Assembly (NCBI RefSeq): GCF_003201815.1
Contig: NZ_QJKB01000003.1
Coordinates: 1 to 64,000 of the forward strand
Direction of reading: 5' to 3'
DNA: 64,000 nucleotides
Origin: Undibacterium pigrum
GTDB taxonomy: Bacteria; Pseudomonadota; Gammaproteobacteria; Burkholderiales; Burkholderiaceae_D
The notes under the pieces: generated by a model
Seen by the model: only the letters and a program-made list of their open reading frames with translations
Told to the model about the DNA's origin: nothing
Database searches by the model: none
Part shown: positions 36,845 through 64,000 of the stretch, in pieces
How positions within the stretch are numbered: the stretch's first letter is position 1
Layout of the letters: each line of letters opens with the position of its first letter
Program-made: the position numbers and the translations under genes

Positions 36845-37480
36845 TCAACTATTTTTTAACAACAAACTATGTAAAGCCATGTCTATATAGTGCTCAATAT
36901 AGGTGTCGAGTTTATCCGGCTCTATATTGCACACTCCTTGTGAATGCTTCCAGATCATCATCATGATCATGGGGGCTATCAATAACCTGGCATCTATCTC
37001 CACGTCCACATTGCGTATTTCGCCGCGTGCCAAGCCACGTTTGAGCATGGTCATGACCAGGTTTTCACCGCGGTTAATGACCTCTTCCTGGTAAAATCTC
37101 GCAAGCTCAGGGAAATTCCCCGCTTCTGCCATCATCAGCTTGGGTAAGCCTGACAATTTGGTATTACCTATGCTGTTCCACCAGGTACTCATGACCAGAC
37201 GGAACAGTTCTTCACTGCTGCCTTCAAACTGGTCAATCACACCTTCCGCTTCGCCCAGCAAGGGGACGATGCTTTCCCTTACCACTGCCTTGAACAACTC
37301 TTCCTTACTGGAAAAGTACAGGTACAAGGTGCCTTTGGAGACGCCGGCAGCCCGTGCCACATCATCCAGACGTGTAGCGGCAAAGCCGCGCTCAACAAAC
37401 AAATCGAGGGCAGCAGCGAGTAATTCTTGTGGACGAGCATCCTTGCGGCGCTCCCACTTGGGCTTCAAATGGCATAACAT
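36845..37480 (-). CDS. TetR/AcrR-family regulator of the RND operon
   Basis: 211 residues. The N-terminal TetR domain (about 14-60) has LLAAALDLFVERGFAATRLD and VSKGTLYLYFSSKEELFK. The C-terminal ligand domain has the pattern of regulators that sit next to efflux genes. It is the first gene of the leftward efflux block, 145 bp before the adaptor, so it probably represses the pump genes and itself. A likely operator (TTACT-N8-AGTAA) lies 21 bp upstream of its start. Confidence 0.9.
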   Translation of the reverse strand: MLCHLKPKWERRKDARPQELLAAALDLFVERGFAATRLDDVARAAGVSKGTLYLYFSSKEELFKAVVRESIVPLLGEAEGVIDQFEGSSEELFRLVMSTWWNSIGNTKLSGLPKLMMAEAGNFPELARFYQEEVINRGENLVMTMLKRGLARGEIRNVDVEIDARLLIAPMIMMMIWKHSQGVCNIEPDKLDTYIEHYIDMALHSLLLKNS

Positions 37481-51890: not shown

Positions 51891-52640
51891 TCAAGCCTTG
51901 CAGATTTCGCGTATCAATAGAAAGCTTGCTCCATTTCTATCCGGACTGCGATATACCCCCTTTGCATTGAGTACATGGGCTGCTGCTGCTGCCATGTCCC
52001 AACCATCTCCTTCTTCTGCTTCCCATTTCGCTGTAATCAGGCAAGGGTAATCGTGCGACTCACCAAAATCGCGGACGGCAATGATGCGAGTGCGTATATT
52101 TTCCAGCAAGTGAAAATTGGCCCAGGCCCATAGCCAGGTATCTGACCTCGATGAATATGAACCAATGAAATCTATCTTTGCAATGACAGCAGGCACACCG
52201 CCATTGGAAAACACCAATTCGGCTTTTTCCTGATCCCAGTCATAGCGTTGATGAGAACCCAGGTCAAACTCCTGGTTCAATTGGTCATTCTTGGTTTTAA
52301 GCTCTTCAAAACAGGTATCAAGGAAAGCATCCCAGGCATCGAAGACCGGGCCAGCCATACGCGCAAGGCTGGCCGAGCGAGCGCCTTCATAACAGACATG
52401 ACACATCAATTTGATAGGCACCAGGTCTTCATTACGCTCATTCCATTCACCGCCTTGCGCCAGATAATGCACATTGCAAGCCGCACACCAGGCGTCAGGC
52501 CAGTGGTTTTCAGCATCAGGATAGTCTGAATGCCATTTTTGTACAGGATGGCTTATCAAGTGTTCACATACATAAGTGACATGCGCCTTGCCATGCTGTG
52601 CGCACTCCAGCGCATCTGATTCTTCCAGTTCTTCATCCAT
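51891..52640 (-). CDS. DUF6882-type protein with N-terminal Cys/His motif
   Basis: 249 residues, soluble. The N-terminal part carries metal-binding candidates: CAQHGKAHVTYVCEH, WCAACNVH and MCHVC, spaced like a zinc ribbon. The C-terminal part (about 110-245) has the pattern I know as DUF6882: VIAKIDFIGSYSSRSDTWLW, AWANFHLLENIRTRI, then AAAAHVLNAKGVYRSP. The family has no assigned function; some members are encoded with immunity or toxin-associated genes, but nothing of that kind is visible here. It lies within the beta-glucoside locus and has no operator of its own that I can find. Confidence 0.65.
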   Translation of the reverse strand: MDEELEESDALECAQHGKAHVTYVCEHLISHPVQKWHSDYPDAENHWPDAWCAACNVHYLAQGGEWNERNEDLVPIKLMCHVCYEGARSASLARMAGPVFDAWDAFLDTCFEELKTKNDQLNQEFDLGSHQRYDWDQEKAELVFSNGGVPAVIAKIDFIGSYSSRSDTWLWAWANFHLLENIRTRIIAVRDFGESHDYPCLITAKWEAEEGDGWDMAAAAAHVLNAKGVYRSPDRNGASFLLIREICKA

Positions 52641-52733: not shown

Positions 52734-54071
52734 TCATTTGCCCTGCAACTGAGCACTGACAAAATCGCGGTACCAATATGCGCTGTCTTTCAAAGTACGC
52801 TGCTGCGTTGCGTAATCCAGATACACCAGTCCAAAACGCCTGGCATAGCCGGAATTCCACTCAAAATTATCCAGCAGGCTCCAGTAAAAATAGGCTTGCA
52901 CATCAACGCCAGCAGCTATTGCATCATGCATGGCCTGGAAGTGCAATTGCAGGTACTGGATGCGCTGCTCATCATGCACTTTGCCATCTTCCAGTTTGTC
53001 AGCAACTGCCATGCCATTTTCAGTGATGTAAATTGGTGGCAAGGCTGGATACTCGGCACGTAGTTTCAGCAATAAATCTGTCATGCCTGAAGGGTAAACT
53101 TCCCAGCCCATGTCGCTGAAACCATGCTTTCCCTCAGGCTGCCTGGGCGGTGTCTCGGTACTGACAAAAGCGCGGAAATAATAATTCACCCCGAGAAAAT
53201 CCAGAGGCTGGCGAATGATCGCCATGTCTTCAGCTTGCACATGAAACTTGCTCATATCCATGCGGTCCAGCGCCTTTTGTGGATAAGTTCCTTTGAAGAT
53301 GGGGTCCATGAACCATTGCACAGAGCGTGCATATTCCCATTCTGCCTGGGCTATATCAGCAGCTGAGTCGGTAGCCGGCGTCGCTGGCCATTGGTTCAGC
53401 ACTATGCCCAGTTTGGCCGGGCAATTGATGGCACGCATGGCTTGCAAGGCCAGGCCATGCGACAGTAAAAGATGATGCGACACTTGAATTGCCAGCGCAG
53501 TATCTGCCACACCGGGAGCGAACTGGGCATTGCCATAACCAAGATTGGCTGTGCACCAGGGTTCATTATGGGTAGCGATGCTGGCGAGACGATGACCAAA
53601 GCGGCGCGCTATTTCTGCCGCATATTCGGCAAAGCGCAAACAGGTATCGCGATTGAGCCAGCCGCCCAGATCTTGCAAGCCCTGTGGCAAATCCCAGTGA
53701 TACAAAGTCAGGTGGGCTTCGATACCATGTTCTTCCAGTTTGTCCAGCAAGTTGGAATAAAATTCAAAGCCTTTTTCATTCCAGTCACCATAACCCAGGG
53801 GCTGCACACGCGACCACGACACCGAGAATCGGTAAGCCTTGAGCCCAAGCCCTGCAATGATGCCAACATCCTCAGCATAGCGATGATAATGATCACAAGC
53901 CACATCACCGGTGCTGCCATCAATAATGGTACCAGCTGTATGGGTGAAGGTATCCCAGATGGAAGGACCGCGGCCATCAGTAGCTGCGGCCCCTTCTATT
54001 TGATAAGCACTGGTGGCAACGCCCCAGGTAAAAGCAGGGGAAAACTCGGGCATCGTTGATGAATTAGTCAT
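52734..54071 (-). CDS. GH1 beta-glucosidase (cytoplasmic)
   Basis: 445 residues, usual GH1 length, no signal peptide. The N-terminal GH1 signature is FTWGVATSAYQIEGA. The acid/base is Glu170 in THNEP and the nucleophile is Glu351 in ITENG; the WSLLDNFEW aglycone-site block is present. It should split cellobiose and other beta-glucosides inside the cell. Two LacI-type operators lie 190-320 bp upstream, in the 900-bp gap shared with the MFS gene, so it is most likely repressed by the LacI-type regulator encoded at 45.5 kb. Confidence 0.95.
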   Translation of the reverse strand: MTNSSTMPEFSPAFTWGVATSAYQIEGAAATDGRGPSIWDTFTHTAGTIIDGSTGDVACDHYHRYAEDVGIIAGLGLKAYRFSVSWSRVQPLGYGDWNEKGFEFYSNLLDKLEEHGIEAHLTLYHWDLPQGLQDLGGWLNRDTCLRFAEYAAEIARRFGHRLASIATHNEPWCTANLGYGNAQFAPGVADTALAIQVSHHLLLSHGLALQAMRAINCPAKLGIVLNQWPATPATDSAADIAQAEWEYARSVQWFMDPIFKGTYPQKALDRMDMSKFHVQAEDMAIIRQPLDFLGVNYYFRAFVSTETPPRQPEGKHGFSDMGWEVYPSGMTDLLLKLRAEYPALPPIYITENGMAVADKLEDGKVHDEQRIQYLQLHFQAMHDAIAAGVDVQAYFYWSLLDNFEWNSGYARRFGLVYLDYATQQRTLKDSAYWYRDFVSAQLQGK

Positions 54072-54263
54072 GGTCTTTTTTTGGATAGATTCGCATTCTG
54101 CATGTAATGGCGTACGTAATTAAGCACGCCATTAAGCACACAATTAAGCATACATACTGTTTTTATAAATTCTCATACTGCATTCCCTAAGAATTGGCTA
54201 AGTCCCCCCCCTTTTATAGCTGGCAGAACTAAAACCATGCATAGCTGCAATACGCACAAAAAT

Positions 54264-54277
54264 TGAAATCGTTTTCA
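54264..54277. promoter_or_regulatory. LacI-type operator, GH1 side (proximal)
   Basis: TGAAATCGTTTTCA differs at one base from the perfect palindrome. Confidence 0.7.
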
Positions 54278-54380
54278 TATTTTGACGAATAATGATTTGC
54301 CGACATTTAATCAGAGGCCAGATCAATATCTCTGTTCAAACATCAAAATAATCGACAGCAAGATTAATTGCATCGCCAAA

Positions 54381-54394
54381 TGAAAACGTTTTCA
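54381..54394. promoter_or_regulatory. LacI-type operator, GH1 side (distal), perfect palindrome
   Basis: TGAAAACGTTTTCA is a perfect 14-bp dyad and the best copy in the window. It is 117 bp from the proximal copy, which would allow DNA looping. Confidence 0.8.
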
Positions 54395-54747
54395 CAAACT
54401 GGAATTTATCACCGGATATCTGAGCTGTCAACGACTCACTTTTTAAAACTACACTCTCTCTATGGGAAAATAATGTGTGCACTTTAAAAAACAAAATTCC
54501 CTGCGCAATATTCTGAATATTTTCAATATGAAATTTGAAATCAATTTCAATGAAACCGGCGCGTTCTCTGCTAACAATACAACATGATATCAATTCAAAG
54601 ACCTGCGCCATCTTTCATTCGCTGAAGCCCCATGTGTGATTGCCTTAGAGCCAGCAAACACTTAAATCCGGGGTATTTTGTGCGCCTGCTTATAATTTTT
54701 TTGCGTATGCATTGCTCATCTTTAAAAAATCCATGCTATCCTGCGCT

Positions 54748-54761
54748 TGAAAAGGTTTTCA
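54748..54761. promoter_or_regulatory. LacI-type operator upstream of the MFS gene
   Basis: TGAAAAGGTTTTCA has a changed centre but both arms intact. It lies 209 bp before the MFS start. Confidence 0.7.
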
Positions 54762-54969
54762 TAACAATGATGACTGATTCCAATTAAAACTATTAACGAG
54801 ACAGCCTGTCAGCTCTTTTGTCATTCATGACTGGTCATATCCTCAAAAAAGAGGGTTCTGTACCAGCAGATACATAAGTGAACACCATTTGAAGCATCGC
54901 TCTATGAAGGGCTATGCAAGAATGAAAGCCAGCAGGCATGCCGCCCACTTGTAAAGAAGCGTGCAGCCC

Positions 54970-56289
54970 ATGATTACTGAGACAGAAGTCAATATCCCGC
55001 CAGCAAGCCCGGCCAGGAAATCACCCTTGTTCTGGGTGCCGACCACTTACTTTACGATGGCGCTGGCCTATATGATGCTGACCAACGTCAGCGCCATCAT
55101 GTTCAAGAACATGGGCATGGACAATGGCAAGGCCGCTGAATATGCCAGTTATCTCATTCTCGCCTATACCATCAAGCCACTGTTCGCCTCTTTTGTGGAA
55201 ATGTACAAAACCAAGAAATTTTTTGTCATTTGCACGCAGTTGATCATTGCCGTTGGTTTTGTCGGTGTTGCACTGGTCATGTCCTTGCCAAACTATATGC
55301 TGATACTGATGGGTCTGTTCTGCGTCATTTCATTCCTTGGTGCGACGATGGACATCGCTGCTGATGGCGTTTATGTGACCTCGCTCGATAGCAAGGCACA
55401 GTCCCTATATTGCGGCATTCAAAGCCTGAGCTGGAACATCGGCCCCATCGTGGCGGCAGGTGGCCTGGTCTATTTGAGTGGCAAACTGCATACCGATTTT
55501 TTCCATCATGACCCCAAGGTATTTGGTGCGGACTGGATGGATGCCTGGCGCGTGATTTTCCTGATAGTGGCAGGTATCATCGCCCTCATGACGGCCTGGC
55601 ATTTACGCACCATGCCTGAAGGCGCGAAAGCGGAAAATACTCCTGCAAATGTCAAAGATGCCTTATTCATCTTGCGCGATTCTTTCATTACTTTCTTCCA
55701 GAAACATGATGTCTGGCTGATGATCGCTTTTGCCTTCCTGTTCCGTCTCAGCATAGGTTTCCTGGAAAAAATCGGTCCCTTCTTCATGGTTGACCCTGTC
55801 AGCAAAGGTGGCCTGGGTCTATCCAATGAAATGCTGGGCCTGACCTACGGCACGTATGGCCTGATTGCAGTTTTGCTCGGCTCTTTGCTAGGTGGCTGGT
55901 TCGTCGCCAAACGTGGCCTGCAACCGACGCTATTCATACTATGCTGTGCAGTGAATATCCCGAATGCCAGCTTTCTGGTGATGAGCATATTCCAGCCAGA
56001 AAGCCTGTGGCTGATCACCGCTGGCGTTGCCATCGAAAAATTCTTCTTTGGCTTTGGCTCCGTCGGCTTCATGATTTACCTGATGCAGCAACTCGCACCC
56101 GGCAAATACACAACGACACACTACGCCTTCGGCACCGGCCTCATGGGCCTGTGTATGATGGTCACCGGTGTCATCAGTGGCCACTTGCAGCAATTGCTGG
56201 GTTATACAAATTATTTCATCTTCGTCATGCTGGCTACTATCCCTTCATTTGCAGTATGCTGGTTTGCGCCCTTCCACCAAAAGGAGTGA
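54970..56289 (+). CDS. MFS transporter, probably beta-glucoside or glucose uptake
   Basis: 439 residues with 12 helices. The sequence (SAIMFKNMGMDNGKAAEYAS, SFLGATMDIAADGVYVTSLD) resembles AmpG-like MFS permeases, which bring in disaccharide-containing compounds, rather than the maltose-type carrier at 14 kb. With a LacI-type operator upstream and GH1 opposite, uptake of cellobiose or a similar beta-glucoside is the likely task. I use the ATG at 54970; a GTG three codons earlier is equally possible. A clear terminator follows. Confidence 0.82.
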   Translation: MITETEVNIPPASPARKSPLFWVPTTYFTMALAYMMLTNVSAIMFKNMGMDNGKAAEYASYLILAYTIKPLFASFVEMYKTKKFFVICTQLIIAVGFVGVALVMSLPNYMLILMGLFCVISFLGATMDIAADGVYVTSLDSKAQSLYCGIQSLSWNIGPIVAAGGLVYLSGKLHTDFFHHDPKVFGADWMDAWRVIFLIVAGIIALMTAWHLRTMPEGAKAENTPANVKDALFILRDSFITFFQKHDVWLMIAFAFLFRLSIGFLEKIGPFFMVDPVSKGGLGLSNEMLGLTYGTYGLIAVLLGSLLGGWFVAKRGLQPTLFILCCAVNIPNASFLVMSIFQPESLWLITAGVAIEKFFFGFGSVGFMIYLMQQLAPGKYTTTHYAFGTGLMGLCMMVTGVISGHLQQLLGYTNYFIFVMLATIPSFAVCWFAPFHQKE

Positions 56290-56380
56290 GTAGCCTGAAT
56301 ACCTGAATACCTGAATATAATAAAATAAAAGCGGCTCGTCCCAACCGTTCACGCTTTAACGTAACAAGTCCCCCACTTTT

Positions 56381-56401
56381 AATGCCGCCTCGTGCGGCAT
56401 T
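56381..56401. terminator. Terminator after the MFS gene
   Basis: AATGCCGC and GCGGCATT pair around CTCGT, followed by TGTATTTTT. A-rich sequence on the other side lets it also stop the converging E1-nitroreductase transcript. Confidence 0.85.
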
Positions 56402-56420
56402 TGTATTTTTCAGATTGTCA

Positions 56421-58448
56421 CTACCTTGACCCGCGCTTGCTACTATCATCCAACCGACACAATTGACTGATATTCAATCGCAAGGAGCGTGCTTTCGCCG
56501 GGCTGCCGTGACCAATCCGCCCCATGAAACAAGCCAGCGCCAATATGTCATCTCCTAGCATCGCTTGCAAATCCCCATGCAGCTTCTGTAGCAGTATTGC
56601 GATGTCTGGATTGCTGCTGGGATTCTGTGCTGCCTGCACATACCAGTTGAATATCAAGGGTGTCATTTCCGGCTGCATTTGTATGCCCAGGCTACTGGCA
56701 GTCAGCCACAAGCGCTGTAAAGCACGACCTGCGGCGACATAGTCTTCCAGTGTGCGCGGGGCCTTTCTGGCTACCAGAATGAAATGTGCTGCGCAGGCGA
56801 TACCAGGCAAAAAATCCAGTTGCAGACGTGGTAACCACGTGCCTGCAAGGTAACGATTCATCCAGCTGATCCGCGCCCAGCTATGCATTGCCCAGCGCAT
56901 CAGTTTGAGTCCCAGCTTATCCATGCCTATGGCCTGATCAGGTATGCGATCGTGACTGAAACGTGCATTCCACTGGATGACATTTTTGTGTACTTGAAAA
57001 GCCTCTGGCATGGTCAGGCGTATTTTTGCGTTGCGCCATAACAGGCTGGCCATGCGCAGGCGACTACCCCAGCCCTCCTGCCATTGCAGACTGAAGTCCT
57101 TGCCGACTGCTGAATTCAGCGCCTGCTTTTCTGCTTTCGTCAAAGGCCGCGTGGATAAGGGTCGCCGTTGAACAGTACGTCGCTCGATCCAGGTCGCTAG
57201 TCCATCTGGTGTATGGCACAGGTCTGCCAGCAACTCCACTTCATAGACGGGGAAACGTACATTTGGTAAATCATGTTCATCATCCATGCGCTTGAAGACA
57301 GCGTGCAATTTTTGTTCACTGGCTGCGATATATATGGTTTCCAGCAATGCCCCCAGGGCAATCTGACTGGGTCGCCCCTCAAAATCATAAACCACAGTCT
57401 CGCGGGTGTCATAAGCATAAATATGGAAGCGACGACTATCCTGGATTTCAAAACGCCAGTTTTGTACATTATCTCCACTCGGTGCCCAGCGCGCTTTTTC
57501 CAGCACTTTTTCGACTGCGGACAAATCCCTGGTCTCAGTCTGGCTACTGGCAGCCAGGCTGGCGCCCAGTATTTTTCTGGCGATGCTTAATTTTAGCTTT
57601 TGCAAGGGATTGCGATTTCCGCCAGGCAGCCAGGTTTTTTTCAATGCCTGTCTGTAAGCGTCATAATGCACGCCATGCGGCGCAGGTCTTACCTGACCAC
57701 GCTTGAGCAAAATCTTGAGTGCTTCGGTCGCGGCAACACCTGCACATAACTGACAAGCCATGACGGTGGACGGGCCCTTCTTCAAATCCAGCCGTATCCT
57801 GCCGGGATCCACCAGGTAAGCCATATGCAGGCGAGCTGGTGCAAGCCCAAGCAAAAAGCGCAAGCCTTGCTCGAATTCATCCTGCCCTTGCATCTGGAAA
57901 TAGTCTTCAAAACTCATCCTGCCCGGCAGAAAAGTCAGCACTGCCGTTCCCATGCCCAGAGGTGCGGCAGTCACCGCCGGTATGCCTTTGCGGTAACAGG
58001 CAGCAAACACCTGACGTCGTATATCGAAGGCAAAAAAATCCAGGCTATCGATATAGATATCCACACCATCAAGAAAGGCATCCATATTGCCCAGGTCTAC
58101 CCCATCCGGAAAAGCCTGTATCTCCAGTTCAGGATTAATATCCGCCGCCATGACCTGCATGACGCTGACCTTGGGTAAGCCCATGCTGGATTGAGTCGCC
58201 CCCGCCTGACGGTTGGTATTGGCGGTATCAAAATGATCGAAGTCGGCAATATGAAAACTGCCTATGCCAAGTCTGGCCAGGGTCAGCAGATGTGCGCCGC
58301 CAACCCCACCCATGCCTGCGATTGCCACACGTTTGTGGCGCAACTGTTCTTGCTCAAGTTCGCTCAACCAGCCCAGATTGCGGGAAAAAGCCTCTTCATA
58401 ATCAAAGTTCCTGACCTGGCTTGCTGCCTCGGGGCAAACTGAATTCAT
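56421..58448 (-). CDS. E1-like (ThiF) adenylyltransferase fused to a nitroreductase-like domain
   Basis: 675 residues. Residues 20-275 are an E1/ThiF adenylating domain: nucleotide loop AGMGGVGGAHL (44-54), the Asp and Arg set in ADFDHFDTANTNRQ (68-81) and a single CQLC pair (232-235) in place of the usual two zinc CxxC pairs. Residues 310-640 look like a nitroreductase: ARWAPSGDNVQNWRF (319-333) matches the FMN-site pattern, with QIALGALLETIYIAA further on. E1 proteins activate a carboxylate with ATP, and nitroreductase relatives can oxidise azoline rings or reduce flavin substrates. No ubiquitin-like or ThiS-like partner is near. Its ATG overlaps the stop of the FeeM-like gene (ATGA), so both products are made together. 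Function unknown; small-molecule or peptide modification is inferred. Confidence 0.85.
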   Translation of the reverse strand: MNSVCPEAASQVRNFDYEEAFSRNLGWLSELEQEQLRHKRVAIAGMGGVGGAHLLTLARLGIGSFHIADFDHFDTANTNRQAGATQSSMGLPKVSVMQVMAADINPELEIQAFPDGVDLGNMDAFLDGVDIYIDSLDFFAFDIRRQVFAACYRKGIPAVTAAPLGMGTAVLTFLPGRMSFEDYFQMQGQDEFEQGLRFLLGLAPARLHMAYLVDPGRIRLDLKKGPSTVMACQLCAGVAATEALKILLKRGQVRPAPHGVHYDAYRQALKKTWLPGGNRNPLQKLKLSIARKILGASLAASSQTETRDLSAVEKVLEKARWAPSGDNVQNWRFEIQDSRRFHIYAYDTRETVVYDFEGRPSQIALGALLETIYIAASEQKLHAVFKRMDDEHDLPNVRFPVYEVELLADLCHTPDGLATWIERRTVQRRPLSTRPLTKAEKQALNSAVGKDFSLQWQEGWGSRLRMASLLWRNAKIRLTMPEAFQVHKNVIQWNARFSHDRIPDQAIGMDKLGLKLMRWAMHSWARISWMNRYLAGTWLPRLQLDFLPGIACAAHFILVARKAPRTLEDYVAAGRALQRLWLTASSLGIQMQPEMTPLIFNWYVQAAQNPSSNPDIAILLQKLHGDLQAMLGDDILALACFMGRIGHGSPAKARSLRLNISQLCRLDDSSKRGSR

Positions 58449-59227
58449 GCTGCCCCCTTCTTGTTACGCTGTATTCCTATCAGGCGCCGGAGCAGGATAT
58501 CCTCATCTTCTTGAGAAAAGAAATACGGGTAAAAGGAGCGCTCGGTGCTTGCCAGATGTGGCTGACCACCAAACTTATGGACCAGGCTCACACAGTAGTC
58601 CAACTCTATGCTCATCAATACCGAAGGGGCCTTGATCTGCTCATTCTCGCGTACTCCGCTCATACGACAAAAGTTCAAGGCCTGCTGATAGAAGCGCACA
58701 TGCCTTGGATTGACTTCTATGCAGATGTCCGTGCAGGAATGAACGCGTGCGGCATTGATCACGGCGACGTGGAACAGGCCTCCCAATACCCGTTTGGATT
58801 TGATATCGCTGTCAACGGCCAATCTGGTGAACTCACAAATGCGACGTCCTTCCTTGCGCATGTGATCAATTTCTTTCTTGAATAGCTGATCCAGTTTCAA
58901 TCCCTTGGGTGAATCAAGATTAACGCTGATGGTACCCACAGTCTCTTCTCCAATGGCAGCCTGCAGGGTCAGCATATTGGAATCTTCTTCCATCTGTGGG
59001 GCGCCGTAGCCACGCCAGGAGTAACGGTCATTGATCAGCACACTGACTGATTCCTTGTGCTGGCAGCTATCCAGCAAACGTATCTTGCATTCGTTGTTGA
59101 TCGCAGATGTTGCGCTCGCTGATACCGCGATATTGCTCCCGGCTGCTGCACTCTCTTCGGCATGCGCCACTATATCCAGCGGCATGCTGATGACAGTGTT
59201 GGAACCGAGCGTGGTTGAGGTTTCCAT
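58445..59227 (-). CDS. FeeM-like N-acyl amino acid synthase (GNAT fold)
   Basis: 260 residues from the ATG at 59227, which has AGGAAG seven bases upstream; a longer frame adds 20 unlike residues. After a variable first 45 residues the acyltransferase core follows: RYSWRGYGAPQ, IGEETVGTISVNLDS, then RRICEFTRLAVD (128-139) and NPRHVRFYQQALNF (173-186). This is the FeeM / acyl-homoserine-lactone-synthase-like GNAT pattern, whose members join a long-chain fatty acid from acyl-ACP to an amino acid. The product could be a signal, surfactant or antibiotic. It is coupled to the E1-nitroreductase gene, so an acyl amino acid may be the substrate of that enzyme. Confidence 0.82.
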   Translation of the reverse strand: METSTTLGSNTVISMPLDIVAHAEESAAAGSNIAVSASATSAINNECKIRLLDSCQHKESVSVLINDRYSWRGYGAPQMEEDSNMLTLQAAIGEETVGTISVNLDSPKGLKLDQLFKKEIDHMRKEGRRICEFTRLAVDSDIKSKRVLGGLFHVAVINAARVHSCTDICIEVNPRHVRFYQQALNFCRMSGVRENEQIKAPSVLMSIELDYCVSLVHKFGGQPHLASTERSFYPYFFSQEDEDILLRRLIGIQRNKKGAA

Positions 59228-59276
59228 ATTTACTTCCTTTAATGAAAGTACCTTGTGAAAGTACTGAGTCAAACTC

Positions 59277-59336
59277 CTACGCTGCAATATCGACAGAAAC
59301 AGCGGGGCCTGCCAGGACAGGCATACTGGTTTTCAT
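59277..59336 (-). other. Possible 19-residue leader or precursor peptide upstream of the FeeM-like gene
   Basis: ATG at 59336 opens a 19-codon frame encoding MKTSMPVLAGPAVSVDIAA, ending TAG at 59277, 50 bp before the FeeM-like start and on the same strand. It is noted because E1-nitroreductase enzymes sometimes act on small peptides. There is no good ribosome-binding site, so it may be chance. Confidence 0.15.
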
Positions 59337-59450
59337 CGCAAATTGGCTTACAGCAGACGTGGTCAAGCCTGGCTGAATTACGCCTGCATTTATCGAAGCA
59401 GTTTGGGTTGTGGTTGGTAGAGCCAGGCCTGGCCAGCCCTTAAGCGACTC

Positions 59451-60038
59451 TTAGTTGAACTGTGTCGACATCATGATCTGGCATCGTCGTTTCAGTGTGG
59501 AGAGCCAGTCGCCAGGGCCGGTATCGAGCGAACTCAAACCCTCTATGAGCGTTACGAGATAGAGAGAGAAAAGGCATTGCGCCATGACGGCAGATTCTTC
59601 TTCATTAAGCTTCATATTGTCATACTCCGTGCGCCCTGCCAGTTCTCCTATAAAAGCCTGTTGTAGTGGCCGGAAAAAAGCAGGGTTATCAAACATCGTA
59701 TCCTTCAGCAGTTCCATACTGAGCGAACGCTGATTCCCGTAATAGGCGTACATGGCTTCGGCATAATGCAGTAAAGCCGCCACCACTCCCGCCCGCTCCG
59801 GCATGCTTATTGATGTTGTGTGCAGAATATTCGTAATATCGTCCAGCAAAATTTCTCTCAGCAATTGCCGTTTGTCTGGAAAATGAACAAACACACTACC
59901 TATGCTGACGCCTGCCGATTCTGCAATCATGCGAGTGGTCGTCCCCTCGTAACCATGTTCCAGAAACAGTTTTTTTGAAGTCGCCAACAAGCTTATGCGT
60001 GTCTGGTCCTTCTGTAATTGTCGAGAATTCTTATTCAT
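59451..60038 (-). CDS. TetR/AcrR-family regulator of the FeeM/E1 cluster
   Basis: 195 residues with a TetR DNA-binding domain at about 14-62 (SKKLFLEHGYEGTTTRMIAE, AGVSIGSVFVHFPDKRQLLR) and a divergent ligand domain. It is the first gene of the leftward cluster, followed after 223 bp by the FeeM-like and E1-nitroreductase genes. A perfect 21-bp palindrome lies 79 bp before its start. It probably represses its own gene and perhaps the cluster, with release by a lipid or amino acid ligand. Confidence 0.88.
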   Translation of the reverse strand: MNKNSRQLQKDQTRISLLATSKKLFLEHGYEGTTTRMIAESAGVSIGSVFVHFPDKRQLLREILLDDITNILHTTSISMPERAGVVAALLHYAEAMYAYYGNQRSLSMELLKDTMFDNPAFFRPLQQAFIGELAGRTEYDNMKLNEEESAVMAQCLFSLYLVTLIEGLSSLDTGPGDWLSTLKRRCQIMMSTQFN

Positions 60039-60116
60039 CCCTACACTTTACCCTGTGGCAAGACAAAATGAAGCAATTCTGATATTCACAGCAAGGATTA
60101 CTTATTATTTTCAATA

Positions 60117-60137
60117 ATCATGCTCAATGAGCATGAT
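60117..60137. promoter_or_regulatory. Perfect 21-bp palindrome, likely operator of the TetR regulator
   Basis: Arms ATCATGCTCA and TGAGCATGAT are perfect reverse complements around a single A. The length and distance (79 bp from the tetR start) suit a TetR-dimer operator. I do not find a second copy in front of the FeeM-like gene. Confidence 0.65.
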
Positions 60138-60789
60138 CAATTTAATTAAAAAGTTGGAATACGTCAATATTTTTTGCGATGCTGCAAAGGTGGAAGGATC
60201 GATTTCAGGTTTTAATCCAGAAAAGCCGCGATGAGAAATCGCCATAAAAAGGCAATAATAATCGTATCAAGAAGATAAATTATGATCCGGAAAAATTCTC
60301 AGATGATGGATCACCTTGCTTTTCTAAAAGACCAGAAACAACTTCTTCTTACTTTAGTGCAACTTTTGCGAATTACGCTTAAATTCCCCATTCCAGGCCA
60401 GCGATGCACTTACGACAAGAATATATCCAAGTTAAAACCTGATACTAGAAATCTCATTACAAATGCTTACACAATTTGCAATCACCATGTCGCAGCAGAA
60501 AAACTATAGCTAGCTTGTTTTTTGCTTATTTTTTTGTTTATTTATTAGCCACATAAGCAAATTACTTTATTCCAGGCCTATACTTAAATCCAGTGCCCTG
60601 CCAGCTATTTGGCTTGATTTAGCGATCCAGGGTGCATGGTTTGCAAGCTCACCTATGTTTATTTTTTGCATATCCATAGATGAAAAAATTACTTCCGGCT
60701 TATCCGCCGGTATCGCTAGCATGGCTGCCTCTTTAACAAAGGATGGACAAGCCATGTATTCATCATATGCAGGCTTGGAGAAAAAAATA
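60138..60789. other. AT-rich intergenic region upstream of the cysteine-metabolism genes
   Basis: About 650 bp. It contains a doubtful 75-codon rightward frame (60282-60509) without family resemblance and otherwise nothing that I can name. It should contain the promoter of the cystathionine beta-synthase gene. Confidence 0.5.
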
Positions 60790-62175
60790 ATGACAAAACA
60801 AACTGATCCCGCAGTACTTGCGTTGATTGGCAATACCCCTATGGTCAAAGTCACCCGCTTTGATACGGGGCTGTGTGAATTATTCCTCAAACTGGAATCA
60901 CAAAACCCTGGCGGCTCCATCAAGGACCGCATAGGCAGGTCGATGATAGAAACTGCAGAACGCGAAGGTCGCCTGCAGGCAGGCGGCACCGTAATCGAAG
61001 CCACGGCTGGTAATACAGGTCTGGGTCTGGCACTGGTAGCGCGTGCCAAGGGTTACCGCGTAGTACTGGTGGTACCGGACAAGATGTCCACAGAAAAAAT
61101 CCTGCACCTGAAAGCCATGGGTGCAGAAGTCCACATCACGCGCTCTGATGTGGGCAAGGGGCACCCTGAGTATTATCAGGACTATGCAGCACGCCTGGCC
61201 AAAGAGATACCTGGCTCCTATTTTGCCGACCAGTTCAATAACACGACCAACCCGCTCGCACATGAAACCACGACGGGACCAGAAATCTGGGCGCAGACTG
61301 ACCACAGAATCGACGCCATCGTCGTCGGCGTAGGTTCGGGCGGCACGCTGACTGGCCTGACACGTTATTTCAACAAGGTCCAGCCCGCGCTGGAATTTGT
61401 ACTGGCTGATCCCAAAGGTTCGATACTGACTGAGTATGTAGAGACAGGCAATATCAATGAAGTCAGCGGTTCCTGGGCGGTAGAAGGCATAGGTGAAGAT
61501 TTCATTCCTGGCATTGCCGACCTCAGCTCTGTCAAACATGCCTATACGATTGACGATGCCGAGAGCTTTGGCACCGCACGTGAACTGCTGCGCGCAGAAG
61601 GCATACTAGCCGGTTCTTCTACCGGCACCCTGCTGGCCGCAGCTCTGCGCTATTGCCGCGCCCAGACTACACCCAAGCGTGTTGTCACCTTTGTCTGTGA
61701 CACTGGCACACGCTATCTGTCCAAGGTGTATAACGATAACTGGATGACAGACCAGGGCTTGCTCAAGCGTAAAAACTATAACGATCTGCGCGATATCATC
61801 AGCCGCCGTTACGATGAAGGCGGCGTCATCAGCGTCAATGCCAGCGACACCCTGATGGTGGCGTTCAACCGCATGCGCAGTGCCGATATCTCACAACTGC
61901 CTGTCATACGTGATGGCGCGATTATCGGTATCATTGATGAATCAGACCTGCTGTTAAAAGTATCAGCCGATGCCAGCCTGTTCCGCAGTGCCGTAGAAGA
62001 CACCATGACCAGCCAGATAGAAACCCTGGCACCGGATGCGAGCATCGCTGCTTTACGCGCAACACTGGACCGCGGCCTGGTTGCCATCATTGCAGCCGAA
62101 CAGCCGGAAAAACAGTTTTATGGCCTGATTACCCGCTTTGACCTCCTTAACCATATGCGCAGGACACTTTCATGA
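60790..62175 (+). CDS. cbs: Cystathionine beta-synthase (PLP domain plus CBS pair)
   Basis: 461 residues from the ATG at 60790, with GGAG 10 bases upstream; the frame upstream is not protein-like. The fold-type II PLP domain (1-320) has the catalytic Lys45 in GGSIKDR and the phosphate-binding TAGNTG (72-77). Two C-terminal CBS domains (about 335-455) follow, as in animal cystathionine beta-synthases but without the heme domain. It condenses serine and homocysteine to cystathionine; cysteine synthase is less likely because of the CBS pair and the partner gene. The next gene overlaps by ATGA, giving an operon for reverse transsulfuration. Confidence 0.9.
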   Translation: MTKQTDPAVLALIGNTPMVKVTRFDTGLCELFLKLESQNPGGSIKDRIGRSMIETAEREGRLQAGGTVIEATAGNTGLGLALVARAKGYRVVLVVPDKMSTEKILHLKAMGAEVHITRSDVGKGHPEYYQDYAARLAKEIPGSYFADQFNNTTNPLAHETTTGPEIWAQTDHRIDAIVVGVGSGGTLTGLTRYFNKVQPALEFVLADPKGSILTEYVETGNINEVSGSWAVEGIGEDFIPGIADLSSVKHAYTIDDAESFGTARELLRAEGILAGSSTGTLLAAALRYCRAQTTPKRVVTFVCDTGTRYLSKVYNDNWMTDQGLLKRKNYNDLRDIISRRYDEGGVISVNASDTLMVAFNRMRSADISQLPVIRDGAIIGIIDESDLLLKVSADASLFRSAVEDTMTSQIETLAPDASIAALRATLDRGLVAIIAAEQPEKQFYGLITRFDLLNHMRRTLS

Positions 62176-63365
62176 GCTATCCCGAATACAAGAAGCCTAC
62201 CCATCCGCAAGCCTTTGGCACGCGTGTCATCCACGCCGGGCAGTTCCCTGACCCGGTCACGGGTGCCATCATGCCGCCTATCTATGCAACCTCCACCTTC
62301 GTGCAGGACAGCCCAGGTGTCCACAAGGGCCTGGACTATGGCCGCTCGCACAATCCTACCCGCTGGGCGCTGGAACGCGCCGTAGCTGACCTCGAAGGCG
62401 GCGCGCAGGCATTTGCCTTTGCCTCTGGTCTGGCAGCGATAGCCACTGTGCTGGAAATCGTCGACAGTGGCGCTCATATCATCGCCGGTGATGATATGTA
62501 TGGCGGCAGCTACCGTCTGTTTGAACGCGTGCGCAAACGCAGTGCTGGCCTGCAGTTCACTTATGTGGACATGACCAAGCCAGAAGAAGTGCTGGCCGCG
62601 ATACGCCCTGACACCAAAATGCTGTGGGTAGAAACACCGACCAACCCCATGCTGAAACTGGCTGATCTGCGCGCCATTGCCAAGATTTGCCGCGAGCACA
62701 ATATCATCGCCGTGGCTGACAATACCTTTGCCAGCCCCAAGGTACAACGTCCACTGGAACTGGGTTTCGATATCGTCGTCCATTCCATGACCAAATACCT
62801 GAATGGTCACTCGGATATCATCGGCGGTGTTGCCATCGTTGGTGGCGAAGCACATCAGGCTGACTGGCGTGAGCGTCTGGGCTTTTTGCAAAATTCCGTT
62901 GGTGCGATCGCCAGCCCTTTCGACAGCTTCCTCGCCTTGCGCGGTATCAAAACGCTCAATATCCGCGTTGAACGCCATAACTCAAATGGCCTGGACCTCG
63001 CACGCTGGCTGGAAAAACAGCCCAAGGTCAAGAAGGTCTATTACCCGGGTCTGGCAAGCCACCCGCAACATGAGCTGGCCAAACAGCAGATGGATGGCTT
63101 TGGCGGCATCATTTCCATAGAACTCGATACCGACCTGGCAGGCGCACGCCGCTTCCTGGAACGTTGCGAAGTATTCGCCCTGGCCGAGAGCCTGGGTGGC
63201 GTAGAAAGCCTGATAGAACATCCGGCCATCATGACGCATGCAACGATTCCTGCAGAGCAAAGAGCCAGGCTGGGTATCACAGATTCATTCATACGCCTGT
63301 CAGTAGGTATAGAAGATGTGGAAGACTTGAGGCAGGATTTGCAGTCTGCTCTCGATGCTGTTTGA
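62172..63365 (+). CDS. Cystathionine gamma-lyase / gamma-synthase family PLP enzyme
   Basis: 397 residues of the Cys/Met metabolism PLP family (fold type I). Catalytic Lys208 lies in HSMTKYLNGHSD, the substrate and PLP contacts in YGRSHNPTRWALERAV and DNTFASP. The residues alone do not separate gamma-lyase from gamma-synthase, but the cystathionine beta-synthase gene overlapping it by 4 bp makes lyase (cystathionine to cysteine, 2-oxobutyrate and ammonia) more likely. A hairpin terminator follows. Confidence 0.9.
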   Translation: MSYPEYKKPTHPQAFGTRVIHAGQFPDPVTGAIMPPIYATSTFVQDSPGVHKGLDYGRSHNPTRWALERAVADLEGGAQAFAFASGLAAIATVLEIVDSGAHIIAGDDMYGGSYRLFERVRKRSAGLQFTYVDMTKPEEVLAAIRPDTKMLWVETPTNPMLKLADLRAIAKICREHNIIAVADNTFASPKVQRPLELGFDIVVHSMTKYLNGHSDIIGGVAIVGGEAHQADWRERLGFLQNSVGAIASPFDSFLALRGIKTLNIRVERHNSNGLDLARWLEKQPKVKKVYYPGLASHPQHELAKQQMDGFGGIISIELDTDLAGARRFLERCEVFALAESLGGVESLIEHPAIMTHATIPAEQRARLGITDSFIRLSVGIEDVEDLRQDLQSALDAV

Positions 63366-63391
63366 TCAAACTTTGATTAAGCTATAATTGA

Positions 63392-63418
63392 CAAGCCCGG
63401 CATAGACAACCGGGCTTG
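63392..63418. terminator. Hairpin between converging genes
   Basis: CAAGCCCGG and CCGGGCTTG pair around a 9-base loop. The T-run is short, but the position between converging stops supports a terminator. Confidence 0.75.
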
Positions 63419-63425
63419 CCATGTT

Positions 63426-64000
63426 TTACTCGCGATACCAGTCAGGTAAAAAACTTCTACTACCGCTGACTCGCTGATATTTTCCTTTGGCTTCATCATA
63501 GTGAAATACCATGGTGGAACGAGGGGCACTAGGGATGACCTCATAGCTCGTGAAGTATTCGCCATTGGCATCGGGTAAGTCGTGACGTTCTATTTCGCGA
63601 TACTCAAACATCTTTGCATTTGCACTCAATACGATTTCCCCGGGCAAGTCTTTGCCTGGCTTAAGCTCCAGCTTGACCTGTATGTCCAGGCAATTACCAT
63701 CCCTCCCCTCCCTATCATTCAAACGCACACGTTCAGGCTTGCCTGGTGCTTTCTTCATACGCCTGGTGCAATCGGCATGATTGAATTCTTTCATGAGCAA
63801 CATGAAATCCTGGTTTTCAGGCAAGAGAGTTGTGATCTGATGCTGTCTCAGCATATACAGTCTGGCGAGTACATCAGTTTCACCTCTTTGAGATTGACTA
63901 TATTCAATCAATAATCCCTGCCTGGCTGGTGCCAGTTCGATGATTTTTACTGCTTTGATTTCCTGCACAGACCGCAAGCTGTCGATGTCATCCTGCCTGG
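63426..64000 (-). CDS. Hypothetical protein, 5' end outside the window
   Basis: The frame is open to the window edge; about 190 C-terminal residues are visible, and the TTG at 63977 is internal. The part LARLYMLRQHQITTLLPENQ, then LMKEFNHADCTRRMKKAPG and VKLELKPGKDLPGEIVLSAN, is mixed alpha/beta with many charged residues. I see no signal peptide or known motif in the visible part and do not recognise the family. The end YQRVSGSRSFLPDWYRE faces the terminator of the converging cystathionine gene. Confidence 0.6.
   Translation of the reverse strand, partial: RQDDIDSLRSVQEIKAVKIIELAPARQGLLIEYSQSQRGETDVLARLYMLRQHQITTLLPENQDFMLLMKEFNHADCTRRMKKAPGKPERVRLNDREGRDGNCLDIQVKLELKPGKDLPGEIVLSANAKMFEYREIERHDLPDANGEYFTSYEVIPSAPRSTMVFHYDEAKGKYQRVSGSRSFLPDWYRE

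Follow-up and report, generated by a model that had tools for sequence, protein, structure and literature searches.

Described acyl-oxazolone systems and the Undibacterium pigrum cassette

Bacterial acyl-oxazolones are made by an N-acyl amino acid synthase (NAS) together with a ThiF (E1-like) cyclase and a nitroreductase-type flavin-dependent oxidase (FDO). Here, we describe a three-gene cassette in a 64,000-nt stretch of Undibacterium pigrum (assembly GCF_003201815.1, contig NZ_QJKB01000003.1, positions 1–64,000; hereafter the window), which is very probably a TetR-switched operon for acyl-oxazolone biosynthesis. PMC10404671 and PMC12856293 both present OxzA–OxzB from Pseudoalteromonas rubra (de Rond et al. 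2021) as the first case, in which an acyltransferase and a ThiF–nitroreductase fusion yield acyl-tyrazolones and phenazolones. TyzACB yields C12-tyrazolone (PMC10404671), and TrzA–TrzS (Rv1356c–Rv1355c) yields tryptazolones from tryptophan with short acyl chains (PMC12856293). The chemistry shared by this architecture is the intramolecular cyclization of an N-acyl amino acid to an acyl-oxazolone, combined with an O2-dependent desaturation (PMC10404671 and PMC12856293). According to PMC12856293, ATP-dependent ring closure by TrzS comes first and O2-dependent desaturation follows, the variants D217A and R540A affect the two steps, the structures 1ZFN and 2YMV were used by the TrzS authors, and what acyl-oxazolones do for the bacteria physiologically is called a major unresolved question.

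The U. pigrum cassette consists of tetR, a FeeM-type acyltransferase gene and a ThiF–nitroreductase fusion gene, arranged in this order and co-directionally on the minus strand (56421–60038). Its assignment draws on the gene order, domains, active-site residues, predicted fold, recurring gene set, an empty site in relatives, and a unique palindrome. The features are as follows:

56421–58448, minus strand: ThiF (E1-like cyclase)–nitroreductase (flavin-dependent oxidase) fusion, predicted OxzB/TrzS-type oxazolone synthetase (675 aa; domains, conserved residues, model, Foldseek)
58445–59227, minus strand: FeeM-type NAS, predicted to take the OxzA/TyzA/TrzA role (260 aa; PF21926 and PDB 2G0B matches)
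59451–60038, minus strand: TetR-family regulator, probable local repressor (195 aa; TetR_N)
60117–60137, no strand: perfect 21-bp palindrome ATCATGCTCAATGAGCATGAT, a candidate TetR operator with no other copy in the genome
60139–60167, minus strand: sigma-70-like promoter TTGACG-17-TAAATT, a consensus match only
56411–60660, no strand: cassette stretch absent from six relatives (right edge set by the two tightest-matching relatives, 60661/60662; homology restarts at 60712 in others)

The stop codon of the acyltransferase gene and the start codon of the fusion gene overlap by 4 nt as ATGA (58448–58445). This overlap, the 675-residue fusion and the tetR gene behind a perfect palindrome had all been reported in a first-pass annotation made from the sequence alone, and each was recovered.

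Comparison with the described systems revealed that (i) as in the published descriptions of OxzA–OxzB, the acyltransferase gene adjoins a ThiF–nitroreductase fusion gene, but the cassette acyltransferase belongs to the FeeM Pfam family, whereas seven gammaproteobacterial loci that we scanned have a PEP-CTERM/exosortase-type GNAT, and a tetR gene heads the cassette; (ii) the two-gene layout, the ThiF–FDO fusion and the matches to the same two PDB structures are shared with TrzA–TrzS of Mycobacterium/Rhodococcus, but the cassette fusion falls under the cut-off of the Rv1355c family; (iii) the same three activities are present by gene content in TyzA–TyzC–TyzB, in which ThiF and oxidase are described as separate, as they are in a second copy in the U. 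pigrum genome; and (iv) Massilia kyonggiensis, the kyonggic acid producer, has NAS, ThiF and nitroreductase genes in an operon-like order, with two other Massilia species among the best 80 of 545 candidate loci described below, but its genes are separate and no oxazolones were observed in it (PMC12479983). The placement of the fusion relative to OxzB, TyzB and TrzS is based on NCBIfam cut-offs. The acyltransferase also shares its family with FeeM (2G0B) of the fee cluster; unlike that cluster, the cassette has no carrier-protein or other fee-type gene among its three genes.

Domains, active sites and predicted fold of the enzymes

Pfam assigned ThiF to residues 22–270 of the fusion (E = 3.2e-42) and Nitroreductase to residues 311–336 only (E = 7.1e-09). 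The E1 loop AGMGGVGG and the flavin motif ARWAPSGDNVQNWRF, both noted in the first-pass annotation, lie in the respective halves. Among the NCBIfam models, the fusion scored above the curated cut-off of PRK08223 through its E1 half (446 versus 266 bits), below that of the ThiF–nitroreductase model PRK14851 (424 versus 1170 bits), and below that of the Rv1355c/TrzS family model NF005901 (181 versus 476 bits). The N-terminal part of PRK14852 (989 positions) was matched by the FeeM-type protein (E = 2.1e-12) and its later part by the fusion, so this model joins all three domains; both matches fall far under its cut-off. A triple fusion, at which PRK14852 hints, was rejected as a natural form in our sample: none of 398 genomes of the phylum reached the model cut-off, and none was seen, while 16 of the 398 matched the PRK14852 query at E ≤ 1e-40. 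The best NCBIfam models for the enzyme genes of the cassette are still titled "hypothetical protein."

The acyltransferase matched Pfam FeeM (PF21926) with E = 7.3e-45 (153 bits versus a cut-off of 27) and the FeeM structure 2G0B with E = 2.1e-9. Its open reading frame (ORF) is listed from a TTG start (59287 to 58445, minus strand); by inspection, the ATG at 59227 is the likelier start.

Conservation was assessed in 122 loci, namely the window, locus L010 and loci L050–L169, the last comprising 40 places from genus and order matches (L050–L089) and the top 80 among 545 confirmed candidates (L090–L169). Both halves were long enough for the tree and the conservation counts in 113 of them (108 distinct rows, as 5 duplicate another). 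Nine loci were dropped: two short ones (L067 and L068), one with a weak oxidase match (L069), one with ThiF in two ORFs (L073), and five with no oxidase match (L080, L081, L082, L084 and L085). In the ThiF half, the four nucleotide-loop glycines tested, D71, N79, R80, Q81, K93, D134 and D137 are invariant in 113/113 rows, and residue 69 is Asp in 109 and Glu in 4. Fusion D137 aligns with MoeB D130. In the flavin half, the motif residues P323, S324, G325, D326, N327 and Q329 are likewise invariant (113/113), as are R424, R428, R477, R526, Q578, Q592 and R644; the variable positions include R320 (100/113), R429 (103/113) and Q505 (80/113). R477 and Q592 are likely counterparts of TrzS R540 and Q651, by spacing only.

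An AlphaFold model of the fusion, built from 65 relatives, had a mean predicted local distance difference test score (pLDDT) of 92.3 and a predicted template modeling score (pTM) of 0.79; it supersedes an earlier, poor model from 10 sequences (pLDDT 68). Foldseek matched the model to Escherichia coli ThiF (1ZFN; template modeling score 0.84, normalized by target) and, at rank 24, to the mycobacterial Acg homologue 2YMV (0.76 by target). The top match was AclA of Tenacibaculum discolor (9EGB), for which a literature search on the name gave none containing it among the eight papers listed. A profile built from 14 flavin halves also ranked 2YMV first by sequence (E = 4.3e-8). Both domains keep the conserved ATP-site and flavin mononucleotide (FMN)-motif residues; the first-pass annotation had wanted the two sites checked in models. 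The ThiF half has an intact predicted adenylation site, and the C-terminal half is, from its sequence and predicted fold, an Acg-like flavin-dependent oxidase domain with its FMN-motif residues kept.

Distribution and neighbors of ThiF–nitroreductase loci

The ThiF–nitroreductase pair is conserved beyond near relatives, contrary to the outcome that the first-pass annotation had named as a refutation. At E ≤ 1e-80, a match to the whole fusion or to either half is present in 60 of 399 genomes of the order, counting U. pigrum itself, and the best 80 of 545 candidates are mostly from Beta- and Gammaproteobacteria, with genera including Sulfuricella, Nitrosospira, Janthinobacterium, Herbaspirillum, Massilia, Rheinheimera, Alteromonas and Colwellia. 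ThiF and nitroreductase are fused in 69 of the 113 rows and split in 44. Of the 113, 75 have an acyltransferase gene no more than 300 bp away (40 FeeM-type and 35 exosortase-type), as counted with FeeM and exosortase-type profiles that were built from the very loci counted. Ten neighbor proteins were scanned, comprising seven GNAT acyltransferases, a FeeM fusion (L098), a Colwellia epimerase and a Janthinobacterium chemoreceptor; the four GNATs that were put to NCBIfam all scored above the cut-off of TIGR03694 (PEP-CTERM/exosortase-associated).

Several of these loci have features of their own. L098 (4737–6014), from a Chromatiaceae metagenome-assembled genome, was counted among the rows without an acyltransferase and does have a FeeM domain; this domain is fused to a C-terminal cyclic-nucleotide-binding domain, and its gene overlaps the start of a fused ThiF–nitroreductase gene, which suggests an acyltransferase under cyclic-nucleotide control. 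In L120 (3103–7962), genes for a bacterial sugar transferase and a low-molecular-weight tyrosine phosphatase precede the acyltransferase and fusion genes, a set that recalls exopolysaccharide clusters. Janthinobacterium L113 (4349–5929) has a split ThiF–nitroreductase pair behind a chemoreceptor gene and no recognized acyltransferase gene nearby, and the upstream ORFs of five other Janthinobacterium loci are similar in size to that of L113.

Presence in the genus and a second, split copy

Among 43 genomes of the genus (U. pigrum included; 35 at least 90% complete), only the window's genome has the fused copy, and only this genome has the TetR at E ≤ 1e-15. The flanking genes were searched in nine relatives. 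Six have both close together (85–98% protein identity); in one, the MFS gene has no close match, and in two the other flanking gene is missing at the thresholds used. All six relatives with adjacent flanks have no cassette between them. Their homology to the window ends at 56402–56410 on the left and restarts at 60661–60790 on the right, where in two of them a 29-nt matching piece at 60712 precedes the right-hand homology, and the six empty sites hold approximately 0.1–0.9 kb of DNA with no match to the window. Because these breaks flank them, tetR, feeM, the fusion gene and the promoter region all lie within the difference. Gain in the U. pigrum lineage and loss in the relatives both fit the empty sites. 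No outstanding flanking repeats were found at the cassette and no transposase gene among its three genes, and a plasmid search at E ≤ 1e-20 returned four distant records only. Since the fusion and the TetR are unique in the genus set, six sites are empty and the palindrome is unique, the cassette is a self-contained and probably locally switched unit.

U. pigrum also has a second copy, on contig C4 (191588–194181), in which feeM, thiF and ntr are not fused. It adjoins a divergently oriented gene for an AraC-type regulator (HTH_18, E = 7.4e-24), which is kept beside the split cluster in four relatives (73–85% identity). In midpoint-rooted trees of either half or of both, the window copy and four such split copies form a five-member clade (support 0.96, 0.99 and 0.997), with the window copy sister to the other four. 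By this grouping, the window copy either is a long-standing paralogue or was acquired from a close relative. A fifth split copy, L073 (7211–8136; relative G020), has a ThiF gene that reads as two overlapping ORFs and may be broken or mis-sequenced.

The TetR regulator and its putative operator

The regulator has a TetR_N domain (E = 2.6e-16; 59.6 bits versus a cut-off of 24). The palindrome, with perfect 10-nt arms, precedes tetR and lies directly behind the second hexamer of the promoter-like site (60167–60139, minus strand; palindrome 60137–60117). The region holds eight promoter-like sites where 5.4 would be expected, so this promoter is a match to consensus only. No second palindrome site was found in the 6.4-Mb genome at up to three mismatches; the chance expectation was 0.03 matches in the window at this tolerance, a value that bears on uniqueness and not on function, because the pattern was chosen after being seen. 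Such an arrangement would be expected of a dedicated local repressor that regulates itself through a putative operator.

The first-pass annotation had asked whether TetR recurs with the enzyme pair, and it does not. We rejected TetR as a conserved pathway partner after searching the window and the 121 other loci with an iterated profile: this search found the two TetR genes of the window (59451–60038 and 36845–37480) and, in the other loci, only two in Rheinheimera, which belong to another subfamily with a TetR_C_30 C-terminal domain. Among the other 398 genomes of the order, one partial match was found (40% over residues 5–137; E ≤ 1e-12, at most eight candidates scored per genome). The best NCBIfam match of the TetR was ScbR/gamma-butyrolactone receptor (E = 8.8e-11; 42 versus 150 bits). 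We rejected this likeness as a clue to the ligand because it is confined to residues 11–70, the DNA-binding part, as are the matches to receptors in the PDB. A look-up of TetR found no mention in PMC12479983 and PMC10404671 (as a whole word) or in PMC12856293. In the two Rheinheimera loci (L158 and L159, 1476–7956), the TetR gene and two more genes lie ahead of the acyltransferase and ThiF–nitroreductase genes, all in one direction; in L159 the two encode an acyl-CoA dehydrogenase and a GNAT.

Proposed pathway and alternatives

An acyl-oxazolone is the most likely product of the operon. The chemistry was shown by others for the homologues, and we infer the same chemistry, including substrates and the details of ring attack, for this copy. 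The FeeM-type enzyme would acylate an amino acid, probably an aromatic one, at its amino group, drawing the fatty acyl chain from acyl-coenzyme A (or acyl carrier protein). The ThiF domain would activate this N-acyl amino acid by adenylating its carboxylate, and attack by the amide oxygen would close the ring of a 5(4H)-oxazolone. The nitroreductase-type domain, with its FMN, would then desaturate the ring with O2, giving a conjugated acyl-oxazolone of the tyrazolone, phenazolone or tryptazolone type. TetR, bound to the promoter-adjacent palindrome, would repress tetR–feeM–thiF/ntr until some ligand frees it. The scheme is consistent with the layout, which is that of oxzAB, tyzACB and trzAS by their published descriptions; with D137, the kind of ThiF aspartate that was mutated as D217 in TrzS (PMC12856293); and with the split paralogue, which has the same three enzymes. 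The first-pass annotation had proposed that an acyl amino acid is adenylated and then altered by a redox step, an outline that probably stands; its view of the product class as unknown does not, since the published architecture gives acyl-oxazolones. Probably, then, the chemistry has already been described, which leaves the apparent switch gene as the only novelty.

Several observations weigh against this reading. The sequence gives neither the amino acid nor the length of the acyl chain. The loci were selected by strong matches to the fusion. The acyltransferase was not found in 21 of the 113 rows, was farther off in 13, and in 4 a contig edge was near. It was not found in six Janthinobacterium loci, where the sole upstream gene scanned encodes a chemoreceptor. 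Five of the dropped loci have ThiF but no recognized oxidase gene (four of them have FeeM genes near, L081 three), and the oxidase match in L069 is weak (24% identity); the full set of genes is thus not always gathered at a single locus. The palindrome, which together with the position of tetR points to TetR control, also scored as terminator-like on the plus strand. Finally, according to PMC12479983, no oxazolones were observed in producers of kyonggic acid, thalassotalic acid and stieleriacine with comparable genes.

The last observation would fit an end product that is a linear N-acyl-2,3-dehydro amino acid of the kyonggic or thalassotalic acid type, with the oxazolone a transient opened by water or with the flavin domain acting alone. 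In its favor, M. kyonggiensis has the genes for the three enzymes and yielded no oxazolone (PMC12479983), and the ring is readily hydrolyzed in acid work-up (PMC12856293). Against it, the ring was detected with homologous enzymes under gentle quenching (PMC12856293), and the conserved ThiF ATP site would be pointless without adenylation. We regard a linear end product as quite unlikely. A narrower question within the acyl-oxazolone assignment is whether the substrate is acyl-tryptophan, as for TrzAS, and not a tyrosine or phenylalanine derivative, as for OxzAB. TrzS is also a ThiF–flavin oxidase fusion with an adjacent acyltransferase gene (PMC12856293), but the cassette fusion falls short of the Rv1355c model and is well above the PRK08223 cut-off, neither of which reads the substrate; tryptophan is unlikely.

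A sulfur-carrier or ubiquitin-like E1 of the MoeB/ThiF type, fused by chance to a nitroreductase, is extremely improbable, even with MoeB and ThiF among the sequence-closest PDB relatives of the fusion. The fusion scored far under the cut-offs of the ThiF (85 versus 275 bits) and MoeB (69 versus 377 bits) models. Sulfur-carrier E1 enzymes of this type are expected to have a paired CxxC (a zinc site); the E1 half of the fusion has a single one, CQLC, and across the rows two were found in 0/113 E1 domains and one in 100/113. No ORF of 50–130 aa ending in GG (a ThiS/MoaD-like tail) was found in the 64-kb window, and the genome has two more E1-like genes at other places. The first-pass annotation had judged protein tagging unlikely on the single CxxC and the missing partner and had asked whether the E1 is clearly a known sulfur-carrier enzyme; by the cut-offs, the CxxC count and the ORF search of the window, it is not, and we rejected protein tagging and sulfur transfer by this domain.

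Returning to the acyl-oxazolone operon, its TetR offers a possible route to induction, and the TetR ligand, if found, would tell what the acyl-oxazolone is made in response to. Gamma-butyrolactones act through TetR-type receptors, and by this parallel the cassette could be a self-contained signaling unit, moving as one piece, in which the TetR ligand is the acyl-oxazolone itself, or the N-acyl amino acid from which it is made, and the compound switches on its own synthesis; we consider this speculative and unlikely. Standing free, with a TetR and a unique palindrome to itself, and accompanied in the genome by a second copy that adjoins an AraC-type gene, the cassette provides a handle on the role of these compounds; otherwise, the result is a well-supported annotation of genes modelled as "hypothetical protein."

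Neighboring genes

No RNA elements were found at Rfam gathering scores in 54000–64000. The cassette is flanked on the left by an MFS transporter gene (54961–56289, plus strand) and on the right by a gene for a pyridoxal phosphate-dependent enzyme of the cysteine/cystathionine synthase type with a CBS domain (60790–62175, plus strand). Farther to the left, 51891–52640 of the window encodes a DUF6882 protein of unknown function.

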